Below are positions 2,587 to 30,663 of a stretch of 64,000 nt of DNA, piece by piece (positions within the stretch are counted from its first letter, which is position 1; the number at the start of each line of letters is the position of its first letter). A program made the translations under genes and the position numbers. This stretch comes from Ignavibacteria bacterium (GTDB lineage Bacteria > Bacteroidota > Ignavibacteria > Tepidaquicellales > Tepidaquicellaceae): positions 454,177-518,176 of the forward strand of contig DATAJP010000002.1 in NCBI GenBank assembly GCA_036262055.1, read 5' to 3'. The notes under the pieces were generated by a model. It did no database searches. It had not been told where the DNA came from and saw only the letters and a list, made by a program, of their open reading frames with translations.

Positions 2587-4221
2587 GTGATAAAGCAGTT
2601 AAATACCAATCTTCTCCCTTCCGAAGCTTATGACGATAAGCTCATTCAATCCAAAATCAAAAAAGAATTAAAGCTAAAAGTTTCCCCTGGAGAAATTAAC
2701 TTCAAAAAACTAAAGCTCTCGCTTGATGCGCGGGGAAAATTTCCTGTTTATCGCATGCAGGTTGAAGTTTATGTGAACGAAGCTCCTCCTGAAGAAAAAA
2801 TCATTTCATCAAAATATGTTCACGTTAAAAATAATAAAAGCGTTGCAATCATCGGCGCAGGACCTGCGGGATATTTTGCTGCCCTTGAACTTATTGAAAA
2901 CGGAATTAAGCCTGTCATCTTCGACCGCGGCAAGGATGCACGCACGCGTAGAAAAGACCTGCGCGCAATCCAGCAATTTAATGAAGTTAACCCCGATTCA
3001 AATTACTGTTTCGGTGAAGGCGGTGCAGGGACATATTCCGACGGAAAGCTTTATACCCGTTCCGACAAGCGCGGTGACGTAAACAAAGTTCTGAAGATTC
3101 TTGTCGAGCACGGCTCAAAAGACGACATCTTATATGAAGCTCATCCGCATATCGGCTCAAATAAACTGCCGGGAATCGTGCAGAACATCCGCAAAACAAT
3201 TCTGAAATACGGCGGTGAGGTTCATTTCGACTCTAAATTAACCGACATCACGATTCAAAACAACAAGATTAAGTCCGTCATCATAAATAACAAAAATGAA
3301 TTTGATTCTGATAACATAATTCTTGCAACTGGGCATTCCGCAAGAGATATTTTTTATTTACTTCACGGCAAAAACATTTTAGTCGAAGCAAAGCCGTTCG
3401 CAATCGGAGTGCGCATAGAGCATCCCCAGCAATTAATCGACTTTATTCAATACAAACAAAAACCGCGCGATGAAAACCTTCCTGCATCGAGTTATAAGCT
3501 TGTATCACACGCATCCGGACGTGGAGTGTTTTCATTCTGCATGTGTCCCGGTGGATTGATTGTTCCGTCTGCAACTGCACCTGGTGAAATCGTCGTCAAC
3601 GGAATGTCAATGTCACGACGCGATTCAAAATATGCCAACTCAGGAATCGTCGTGCAGATAAACCTCGAAGACTTAACCGGTAATCTCTTCAAAGAAATAA
3701 AAAATCTGTACTCTGAACATAACAAGTCTGATTATTTCAACGAGCATTTTTCAAAAAAACTGAATACCAAAAATATTTTATGCGGACTTGAGTTTCAGAA
3801 ATCACTTGAGCAGTTATTTTTTCTTAACAATACCGCAGGTACACAGGAAGCCCCTGCGCAAAAGATTACCGACTTTGTAAATCACATAGTTTCATCGAAA
3901 CTAAACGGCACTTCGTACATCCCCGGAATTTATTCATCTGACTTCGATAATTTATTTCCGGAGTTCATAAAAGAAGGATTGCGGAAAAGCTTAATTGATT
4001 TTGGGCAAAAGATGAAAGGATATTATACCGATGAAGCGCAGATCATCGGCATCGAATCGCGCACAAGCTCCCCGGTAAAAATACCAAGAGATAAACTTTC
4101 TTATGAACATGTTGAAGTTAGCGGATTATATCCCTGCGGCGAGGGAGCAGGTTATGCAGGCGGCATTGTTTCCGCCGCAATCGACGGTCAAAACGTCGCA
4201 AAGGCAATTATAAAAAATTAA
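2587..4221 (+). CDS. FAD-dependent oxidoreductase, COG2509 family
   Basis: About 544 residues from the GTG at 2587. An uncharacterised NAD/FAD-dependent dehydrogenase family. It has a family-specific N-terminal domain, a Rossmann FAD motif GAGPAGYFAALEL near residue 90, a GEGGAGTYSDGKLYTR segment and a C-terminal GEGAGYAGGIVSAA FAD contact. An upstream ATG (2557) would extend the frame by ten residues (MDSCLRRNDK), but those are read from a dispersed palindromic repeat. From the GTG the protein begins (M)IKQLNTNLLPSEAYD, which fits the usual family start, so I prefer it. The substrate is unknown. Confidence 0.85.
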   Translation: MIKQLNTNLLPSEAYDDKLIQSKIKKELKLKVSPGEINFKKLKLSLDARGKFPVYRMQVEVYVNEAPPEEKIISSKYVHVKNNKSVAIIGAGPAGYFAALELIENGIKPVIFDRGKDARTRRKDLRAIQQFNEVNPDSNYCFGEGGAGTYSDGKLYTRSDKRGDVNKVLKILVEHGSKDDILYEAHPHIGSNKLPGIVQNIRKTILKYGGEVHFDSKLTDITIQNNKIKSVIINNKNEFDSDNIILATGHSARDIFYLLHGKNILVEAKPFAIGVRIEHPQQLIDFIQYKQKPRDENLPASSYKLVSHASGRGVFSFCMCPGGLIVPSATAPGEIVVNGMSMSRRDSKYANSGIVVQINLEDLTGNLFKEIKNLYSEHNKSDYFNEHFSKKLNTKNILCGLEFQKSLEQLFFLNNTAGTQEAPAQKITDFVNHIVSSKLNGTSYIPGIYSSDFDNLFPEFIKEGLRKSLIDFGQKMKGYYTDEAQIIGIESRTSSPVKIPRDKLSYEHVEVSGLYPCGEGAGYAGGIVSAAIDGQNVAKAIIKN

Positions 4222-16376: not shown

Positions 16377-17753
16377 ATGGAAATTACAACTTTAAAATCA
16401 AAGTTGGGGGAAAACAATTCTGCAATTTCAGGAAAAAAGAAAGAGCTTCTCGATTCTTTTCTGAGCGTGCGAAAAATGACCTTTGAAATTCTCGAACCGC
16501 TCGAAATCGAAGACTACGTTGTGCAGACCGATGCATTTATGAGTCCGCCCCGTTGGCACGTCGGACACACAACCTGGTTTTATGAACAGCTCTTAAAATC
16601 TTATTATCCTGACTTCAAACCTTTTCACAAAGACTTGGCATTTTATTTTAATTCATATTATCTCACTTACGGAAAGCTTTTCAACAAAGCAAAACGCGGA
16701 ACAATCTCACGCCCGACAGTAAAAGAAACTTTCGAGTACGCAGAGTTCATAAATAATCAGGTAATAAAATTCTTTGAAGATGAACGTACTCAGCTTACAG
16801 ATGAAATGATTAAAAATTTTCTCATCGGCTATAATCACGAATGGCAGCATCAGGAATTAATCGTATATGATTTACAACATTTGCTTGCCGATGATTACAA
16901 ACCCGTGAACATGATTGAGCTTCCTCATAAAAACGGTCACATCGTAAAACAAGAAATGATAAAAATTCCCGAAGGAATGTTCATGCTCGGTTTCGATAAC
17001 AAAAAGTTTCCCGACCGCTTTGCTTACGACATTGAAATGCCTGCGCATAAAGTTTTCATAAATAAATATTCAATCGATAAATATCCTGTCACCAACGGAC
17101 ATTATCTCGAGTTCATAAATGCAAAAGGTTATGAGGATTTTCATTACTGGCTTTCCGACGGATGGTATTGGAAAAACGATAACGAAATTTTCGCTCCGCT
17201 TTACTGGGCAAAAGATGATAACGGCAAGTGGTTTAAATATGATTTCAGAGGAAAAGTTTTCATCGATGACATTCTAAACGAACCCGTTACTCACATAAGC
17301 TACTTCGAAGCCGATGCCTTTGCAAAATGGGCAGGCAAGCGCCTGCCGACTGAAGCAGAATGGGAAAAAGCCGCATCGTTCAACGAAGACACAGGCGAAA
17401 ATAATTTATTCCCGTGGGGAAACGACGACCCTGATGAAAGCAAAACCAACCTGCTTGGATTTAACATCTGGAAACCCGTCAACGTCAACTTTTTTGAAAA
17501 AGGAAAATCATATTACGGATGTTACGGAATGATTGGCGATACATGGGAATGGACTTCATCGGAGTTCATGGCTTACCCCGGCTTTAAATCCGGCTTCGCT
17601 GAATACAACGACAAATGGTTCAGCAATCAGAAAGTCTTGCGCGGAGGTTCATTCGGAACACATTACTTATCAACAAAAAACACTTACAGAAACTTCTTCA
17701 AAACTCACGAACGCTGGCTAATCTCAGGATTCAGATGCGTGAAGGATGAGTAA
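16377..17753 (+). CDS. egtB: Ergothioneine biosynthesis protein EgtB (iron-dependent sulfoxide synthase)
   Basis: 458 residues. EgtB uses O2 and non-haem iron to join hercynine (trimethyl-histidine) to gamma-glutamylcysteine or cysteine. The N-terminal DinB-like domain carries the three-His iron site: His61 in PRWHVGHTTWFYEQ, His154 and His158 in GYNHEWQHQEL. The C-terminal FGE-sulfatase domain is seen from about residue 200 (KIPEGMFMLGFDN) to the end (VLRGGSFGTHYL, GFRCVKDE). An ATG 21 codons upstream (16314) is in frame, but its leader is AT-rich and non-family, so ATG 16377 is preferred. The methyltransferase egtD lies about 5 kb away. Confidence 0.92.
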   Translation: MEITTLKSKLGENNSAISGKKKELLDSFLSVRKMTFEILEPLEIEDYVVQTDAFMSPPRWHVGHTTWFYEQLLKSYYPDFKPFHKDLAFYFNSYYLTYGKLFNKAKRGTISRPTVKETFEYAEFINNQVIKFFEDERTQLTDEMIKNFLIGYNHEWQHQELIVYDLQHLLADDYKPVNMIELPHKNGHIVKQEMIKIPEGMFMLGFDNKKFPDRFAYDIEMPAHKVFINKYSIDKYPVTNGHYLEFINAKGYEDFHYWLSDGWYWKNDNEIFAPLYWAKDDNGKWFKYDFRGKVFIDDILNEPVTHISYFEADAFAKWAGKRLPTEAEWEKAASFNEDTGENNLFPWGNDDPDESKTNLLGFNIWKPVNVNFFEKGKSYYGCYGMIGDTWEWTSSEFMAYPGFKSGFAEYNDKWFSNQKVLRGGSFGTHYLSTKNTYRNFFKTHERWLISGFRCVKDE

Positions 17754-22490: not shown

Positions 22491-23513
22491 TTAACTCTTT
22501 TTAAATAACCACAATGAAAAATACTTATTTTCATCTTTCCATTCGGTCAATTTTTGCAGTCCCGCTGAAGTTGTTATATCCAAAACCATTTCATTCGAAA
22601 ATTTATAGGAGTTTTCTGTGTGAATGCTTTCTCCTTCATCGAAGAAAATCTCCTTATTCTGTTTCCTAAACTTCACATACTGCAAGTTTTTCGAAACAAG
22701 GTGCATTTCGATACGGGATTCCTGTTCATTGAAAAAAGCATGGTGAGAAAAGTTATTTAAATTAAATTCTGCTCCAAGCTCCCCGTTGATTCTCTTCAGC
22801 AAATTTAAATTAAATGCTTCCGTCACGCAATCGCTGTCGTTATATGCCTTGTGCAGTATTTGCCTATCTTTTATCATATCAAATCCGATAAGAAAAAAAT
22901 CATCATCAGTCATGTTAGCAGTAATAACTTTCAGCAGATTTGTTGCTTCGGCCGGAGTAAAATTTCCAATGCTTGAACCGAGAAAAATTATAAGCTTAGG
23001 TTTGTTGTTTAATTCATTAACTTTTTCGATTCCTTCCTCATACTCGCTCATAATTCCCGTGATGTTTATCGATGGGAATTCAGTTTTTAATTTCTCAACT
23101 GTAGTTTCCAGAATATCGGATACGTCAATCGGAAAATATTCAAGTTTGCTAAATCCCCTCTCGAGAGGGGTGTCAACGAAGTTGACGGGGTGTGTTGCAA
23201 AATATTTTAAAATAGTTTTTGTCTTAACCGACGTTCCGCTTCCAAGCTCTACAATACATTTTACATTTTTTGTTTTATTAAAAATATCCTCGATATTGTC
23301 CTGTAAAATTTTTTCTTCGGTGCGTGTGGGGTAATAATCCTGTGTCTTGCAAATATCTTCAAATAACAATGAACCCTCATGGTCATAGAAGTATTTTGCA
23401 GAAATGGATTTGGGATGCGAGGTCAATCCTTTTATAACATCATTTTCAAAATCAGCTTCGCCTCCGGCTGAATTTAGCTTTATGACACTCAAAATTTCGG
23501 GATTTTTGTTCAT
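22491..23513 (-). CDS. egtD: L-histidine N-alpha-methyltransferase EgtD
   Basis: 340 residues. It transfers three methyl groups from SAM to the histidine amino group, giving hercynine, the first step of ergothioneine synthesis. Landmarks: GLTSHPKSISAKYFYDHEGSLLFE, YYPTRTEEKIL, SAM motif CIVELGSGTSVKT, FFLIGFDMIKDRQILHKAYND, and C-terminal EKENSYKF-type region (IHTENSYKFS). Oddity: about 18 residues (THPVNFVDTPLERGFSKLE, positions about 107-125) are read from a dispersed palindromic repeat lying in frame between the SAM-binding strand and YFPIDVSD. Whether the enzyme still works is not known. Confidence 0.9.
   Translation of the reverse strand: MNKNPEILSVIKLNSAGGEADFENDVIKGLTSHPKSISAKYFYDHEGSLLFEDICKTQDYYPTRTEEKILQDNIEDIFNKTKNVKCIVELGSGTSVKTKTILKYFATHPVNFVDTPLERGFSKLEYFPIDVSDILETTVEKLKTEFPSINITGIMSEYEEGIEKVNELNNKPKLIIFLGSSIGNFTPAEATNLLKVITANMTDDDFFLIGFDMIKDRQILHKAYNDSDCVTEAFNLNLLKRINGELGAEFNLNNFSHHAFFNEQESRIEMHLVSKNLQYVKFRKQNKEIFFDEGESIHTENSYKFSNEMVLDITTSAGLQKLTEWKDENKYFSLWLFKKS
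23152..23199. repeat. Family C palindromic repeat inside egtD
   Basis: TCCCCTCTCGAGAGGGG followed by a small hairpin TCAAC-GAA-GTTGA and CGGGGTGTGTT. The same architecture, with a different inner stem, is found in intergenic DNA at 30600-30651. Here it is read through in frame. Confidence 0.85.
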
Positions 23514-30571: not shown

Positions 30572-30599
30572 AATTACATTTCATTCACGATTTTATTTA

Positions 30600-30651
30600 A
30601 TTCCCCTCTAGAGAGGGGTGGCGCCGATGAAATCGGCGACGGGGTGTGTTC
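30600..30651. repeat. Family C palindromic repeat
   Basis: TTCCCCTCTAGAGAGGGG, then an inner hairpin GCCGAT-GAA-ATCGGC, then GACGGGGTGTGTT. It lies between the MmcQ gene and the antiporter gene. The outer blocks match the copy inside egtD; the inner stem differs but still pairs. Confidence 0.85.
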
Positions 30652-30663
30652 ATTCCTCCACTC

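Follow-up and report, generated by a model that had tools for sequence, protein, structure and literature searches.

A short double-hairpin repeat read in frame within the ergothioneine gene egtD of an Ignavibacteria bacterium

The locus described here raises the question of how a short palindromic repeat came to be read as part of a biosynthetic enzyme, and with what effect on that enzyme. The gene concerned is egtD of an Ignavibacteria bacterium, contained in a 64,000-nucleotide stretch of contig DATAJP010000002.1 (assembly GCA_036262055.1) that is referred to below as the window. It occupies positions 22491..23513 on the minus strand, is open along its whole frame and encodes an L-histidine N(alpha)-methyltransferase of 340 amino acids that scores 348.7 bits against the NCBIfam equivalog TIGR03438, above the cut-off of 290.9. 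The residues that bind histidine and S-adenosylmethionine in mycobacterial EgtD are Tyr39, Tyr56, Asp113, Asn166, Tyr206, Glu282 and Ser284 (PMC8593015), and by alignment all seven catalytic or ligand residues are conserved here as Y43, Y60, D130, N184, Y224, E300 and S302; judged from its sequence, by score and binding residues alike, the protein is an EgtD. The gene for its pathway partner enzyme, egtB (16449..17738, plus strand; G000:C2:470625-471914), is intact in the same window and scores 429 bits against TIGR03440 (cut-off 360), and the ergothioneine pathway therefore looks alive in this bacterium.

The element copy in egtD and its family

The original prediction proposed that about 18 residues of EgtD (107-125) are the translation of a dispersed repeat whose outer blocks recur in intergenic DNA at 30600-30651. 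The element in egtD (AAATCCCCTCTCGAGAGGGGTGTCAACGAAGTTGACGGGGTGTGTT) lies at 23151..23196 on the plus strand and, read on the minus strand, supplies residues 107-121 (THPVNFVDTPLERGF), so that the prediction holds for these residues, whereas SKLE (122-125) is host sequence. Within the copy, a first hairpin with arms CCCCTCT/AGAGGGG spans 23155..23170 (no strand assigned), a second hairpin, TCAAC-GAA-GTTGA, spans 23173..23185 (plus), and a conserved 3' block, CGGGGTG-TGTT, spans 23186..23196 (plus). The 340 codons run without a stop, confirming that the frame is kept. A covariance model places the copy at 23149-23198 (64.2 bits, E 1e-19), a value that is not independent evidence since the copy belonged to the training set of the model; independent evidence comes from blastn, which found the egtD region at 36 places genome-wide (window included), and from a strict pattern with 38 matches in the genome against none for the reversed-pattern control, both of which bear out the dispersed nature of the repeat. 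The intergenic recurrence was also confirmed, by a covariance match at 30597..30652 (plus strand; 68.6 bits, E 3e-21) with a different hairpin 2 (GCGCCGATGAAATCGGCGA), and by the same model the window holds exactly two full copies, this one and that in egtD.

The best other blastn match, at C1:161540, is identical to the egtD copy at 44/45 positions (98%, E 1.6e-15) and has the same hairpin 2 in unrelated flanks, while a copy at C2:569152 has nearly the same hairpin 2 (94%), again in different flanks. Shared hairpins in differing surroundings are as expected if the unit alone was copied, and to this extent the repeat deserves the description 'mobile-like' that it had been given, although no enzyme moving it was found.

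Across the genome (2.87 Mb in four contigs), the covariance model, trained on 22 copies from this genome, recovers about 66 copies at E <= 0.001; copies were collected both by search and by stretches of the genome. The 38 strict copies follow a single plan, AAAWT-CCCCTCTYGAGAGGGG-TG-(hairpin 2)-CGGGGTG-TGTT, in which CCCCTCTYGAGAGGGG is the invariant hairpin 1 and is followed by TG, hairpin 2 and CGGGGTGTGTT. Copies measure 44-52 nt (46 in egtD) and their borders, AAAWT...TGTT, are sharp, the DNA beyond them having only AT-richness in common. The egtD copy carries both conserved blocks and the self-complementary middle that mark members of the family. The arms of hairpin 1 show no variation across the alignment and are invariant in 38/38 strict copies. 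Hairpin 2 is hypervariable between copies, in length as well as sequence, yet self-complementary, with both sides changed in all eight pairs. Its covariation score is 0.234 against 0.059 for shuffled and 0.02-0.04 for slid versions; the structure was written from the same sequences, which biases the test toward it, but the margin is large. Such a pattern could arise if one arm were rewritten and the change copied to the other by template switching at hairpins, or alternatively if copies exchanged hairpin 2 by way of the constant blocks that they share. Of the six frames, five are stop-free in at least 36 of the 38 copies, and stops being so rare, a surviving insertion would add a peptide rather than truncate the protein. 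Rfam gave no match at either window copy, and literature searches found nothing on the hairpin 1 sequence and nothing relevant on palindromic or intragenic repeats in Ignavibacteria.

Comparison with other EgtDs shows where the peptide was added. The stretch from the end of helix A to the strand that finishes in ..PIDVS is 20 residues long here and 4-8 in the 24 EgtDs of related genomes, proteins that are 39-52% identical to this EgtD and lack the peptide; in near relatives without the repeat the loop has 7-8 residues, in agreement with the short loop that had been expected. The insert had been placed between the SAM-binding strand and YFPIDVSD, which is broadly right, except that helix A intervenes and the site is the loop from helix A to strand 2. 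A search of genome contigs for a close relative, whether it carries the insertion or not, returned three distant EgtDs only; the peptide is absent from these and from the structurally characterized M. smegmatis EgtD, in all of which the loop has at most 8 residues, and none of about 30 EgtDs has residues of equal length without the repeat DNA. The nearest EgtD, at 52% identity, is too distant for the exact empty site to be read from it. The net gain is 12 residues, three fewer than the 15 that the element encodes. Subtracting a clean 45-nt insertion would give an original loop of 5 residues, against 7-8 in near relatives, and the insertion may therefore have replaced some host codons; either about three codons disappeared or the host loop had fewer residues to begin with.

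The stretch in egtD is thus very probably a short, non-autonomous, double-hairpin interspersed element, similar to REP or RPE repeats, that was copied into a tolerant loop and whose frame was kept by selection. This reading draws on the repeat family, its sharp borders, the near-identical sibling, the absence of the peptide from other EgtDs and the open frame, and its remaining steps are proposed: the element would have moved as a DNA unit, probably via a single-stranded hairpin form or template switching; most insertions into genes would have been lost; and the one in egtD would owe its survival to the preserved frame and to its place in the loop joining helix A to strand 2, at that end of the strand which is remote from the S-adenosylmethionine pocket.

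Distribution and candidate movers

Within the class, 15 of 294 genomes, belonging to 3 of 152 genera, carry the strict element, and 14 of 395 genomes of a phylum sample carry a looser form, mostly with a self-complementary middle; the element was not found in the other sampled genera of the window's own family. Another family of the phylum provides a separate observation: one genome (G379) has 24 matches of a related repeat, which among the matches listed are near-identical (GAGGGGTGCCCGGGTGAGCGCAGCGAACGGGCGGGGTGTG) and in some cases about 370-630 bases apart.

Mobilization by a RAYT (Y1 HUH transposase), which would make the element a classical REP family, is unlikely. Four Y1_Tnp genes are present in this genome and hairpins with a short conserved foot do resemble REPs, but three of the four genes have no element copy in the 2-2.5 kb searched on either side, and the fourth has its nearest copy about 1 kb away, with other hairpins in its immediate flanks. 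Nor does gene number follow the element: genomes of the same family without it have as many or more Y1_Tnp genes, and one genome of genus g17, in a sister family, has one element and no Y1_Tnp match (G035). RAYTs were accordingly not supported as the mover, the element flanking none of them directly in its own genome, and no transposase was tied to it. The Y1_Tnp genes at loci L066 and L068/L057 adjoin other hairpins (CGTCAGGACGTAAGTCCTGACG; GTTGTTGGTGTTTTCACCAACAAC) that are possibly their own REPs.

Tagged proteins in this genome and in a sister genus

Three of the 66 copies in this genome lie in frame within convincing genes, namely egtD, mnmA and a gene for a TonB-receptor-like protein; the others lie outside genes or touch extended 5' ends, with one in a 118-aa frame. 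Copies that overlap only the upstream extensions of the pheS and purH frames were not taken as intragenic, since these genes probably start at internal ATGs, and the copy over the 118-aa frame (C2:888792) was left out of the intragenic count, the status of that frame being uncertain. mnmA (L218, 1492-2637; copy G000:C3:698712) begins with an element-encoded N-terminal extension (ITHPVPAGHPSQKGI), and its relatives, 70-75% identical, begin to align at about residue 17-23, past the element. In the TonB-receptor-like gene (L062, 1723-3600; copy G000:C3:276262), the element lies in the first, positively charged residues of the signal peptide (MKNSPLERGVAQRRGV...). The start codons of both genes are predictions.

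In genus g17, the surroundings of 48 copies from six genomes were inspected, these being the first listed copies and not a random sample. About 20 of the 48 fall in frame on a single turn of type IX secretion (T9SS type A) sorting domains (..FNPxTKIKFxIP-LLRGVSEGRGV-FVxLKIYDxLG..); several are in tandem paralogues, so that the counts are not of independent events. The loci are L139, L145, L146, L147, L149, L151, L155, L163, L166, L167, L169, L171, L174, L175 and L177. All copies at this turn point the same way, and their hairpin 2, either 9 or 15 nt long, differs in sequence even between close paralogues (L155). As may also be the case in egtD, host residues are missing at the site, here a short turn such as KSG. 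Two further g17 copies are in frame elsewhere, one mid-way in a large secreted protein and one in a homoserine dehydrogenase (L168, G030:C20), where it occupies the linker that follows the catalytic domain. Each genome has at least 150 sorting domains (206-338 first-look candidates); in the window's own genome, none of the 66 copies was found in one.

Two loci show related states of the turn. An element-free sorting domain at L155 (minus strand, about 3138-3287) has another palindrome in the same turn (GAGACGACCC-GGCGGGTCGTCTC region, IPAFAETTRRVVS), and the turn may accept other repeats too. At L146 (minus strand, about 462-611) a sorting-domain copy has decayed, with hairpin 1 broken, hairpin 2 largely paired and the frame kept.

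A wider reading would hold that the element is active or recently active, that its hairpin 2 is constantly rewritten while remaining self-complementary, and that it repeatedly enters one fixed turn of the T9SS sorting domain, such that the secreted proteins of a whole genus bear varying element loops in their export signal and the egtD copy is a stray product; taken as a whole, we regard this as unlikely.

Effect on the enzyme and relation to known repeats

An AlphaFold2 model of EgtD (pLDDT 84.6, pTM 0.82; alignment of four sequences) matches the fold of EgtD crystal structures (4pim) with TM 0.85-0.86. The insert forms a loop between a helix (96-107) and a strand (125-130), and residues 115-121 have pLDDT below 50. 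In class I methyltransferases the SAM pocket lies at the C-terminal ends of the strands. The insert, by contrast, meets strand 2 at its N-terminal end, and the loop should therefore clear the SAM pocket; on the point raised by the original prediction, the model thus places the insert in a disordered loop, and we infer active-site clearance from that geometry. A floppy loop of 15 residues probably leaves EgtD working, and the element peptide is most likely a neutral, disordered passenger in an enzyme that probably still makes hercynine.

Two other fates of the enzyme were weighed against that of a tolerated passenger. If egtD had been struck recently and were becoming a pseudogene, with an impaired enzyme, the near identity of its copy to a sibling could reflect a recent event, but the intact 340-codon frame, the retention of every checked active-site residue and the intact egtB make this improbable. 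Co-option of the inserted loop, for instance for a protein contact or the regulation of EgtD, would mean that the peptide is not neutral; neither the frame nor any part of the element has been lost, co-option is possible for surface loops, and the repeated use of one sorting-domain loop in sister genomes shows that peptides from the element can be retained in large numbers, but the loop is predicted to be disordered, its sequence is that of the generic repeat with no signs of adaptation, and a single EgtD carries it, so that we give this reading very little weight. That the loop is native and resembles the repeat by chance, or that an assembly chimera was produced (short repeats can break assemblies), is hardly credible given E values of 1.6e-15 to the best sibling and 1e-19 by the covariance model, and given that egtD continues in order and in frame on both sides, an outcome not expected of contigs wrongly joined at a dispersed repeat. 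The preferred reading remains that of an element copied into a tolerant loop of a working enzyme.

In-frame palindromic repeats have precedents. Rickettsia palindromic elements (RPEs; Ogata 2000, 2002, reviewed in PMC10969869) are about 150 nt long and lie in frame within genes, nearly half of those of R. conorii being in genes (PMC10969869). The present element resembles RPEs as short, palindromic, interspersed DNA that lies in frame in unrelated proteins, has several open frames and is presumed to be tolerated in loops, and it works as they do, being found in coding genes with the frame kept and orthologues lacking it. It differs from them in length (44-52 against about 150 nt), in having two hairpins of which one is hypervariable with compensatory changes, in its host, a genome that its relatives and shared T9SS domains place in the Bacteroidota group, and in the share of copies in genes (3/66 in this genome, against the R. 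conorii figure). GTAG/CGTC-tagged REPs are small stem-loops, mostly intergenic and some intragenic and in frame, with CGTC families known from Chlorobi and Bacteroidetes and complementary stem changes between subfamilies (PMC3733652), features that the present element shares in being a small stem-loop repeat, mostly intergenic, in frame in some genes and with complementary stem changes. The CGTC REP pattern of an 8-9 bp stem, a complementary AT start and a CGTC foot (PMC3733652) is not seen in the element, which has stems of 4-8 bp, no fixed AT start, a variable foot (the base of hairpin 2 that precedes CGGGG can be A, G or C) and a further hairpin, itself invariant, in the same unit. RAYT-associated REPs (tnpA-REP) include insertions within tnpA-REP genes and 'atypical' structures in Bacteroidetes subclass 2.6 (PMC6006769). 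The element is likewise a hairpin repeat scattered over its genome, but no RAYT gene here is directly flanked by it.

By analogy, the egtD case works like the in-frame palindromic repeats already known, that is, Rickettsia RPEs and intragenic GTAG/CGTC REPs, while the differences in RPE length, CGTC foot and stem, and RAYT linkage set the element apart as a variant. It had been presented as a direct case of a repeat adding a peptide to an enzyme, which is right, though it is one of several and the principle was known from Rickettsia. Rickettsia, from which in-frame palindromic repeats are best known, is an obligate intracellular lineage, for which relaxed selection is a ready explanation. In the present case a small element of quite another kind tags proteins of a bacterium in a different phylum, among them one enzyme of metabolism and one that modifies tRNA; in sister genomes a homoserine dehydrogenase and numerous secretion signals are tagged as well. 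That hairpin 2 is hypervariable and yet self-complementary calls for a mechanism, and the tagged enzymes, several of which can be compared with orthologues that lack the tag and are 50-75% identical, are clean test material for how often short mobile DNA harmlessly adds a peptide.
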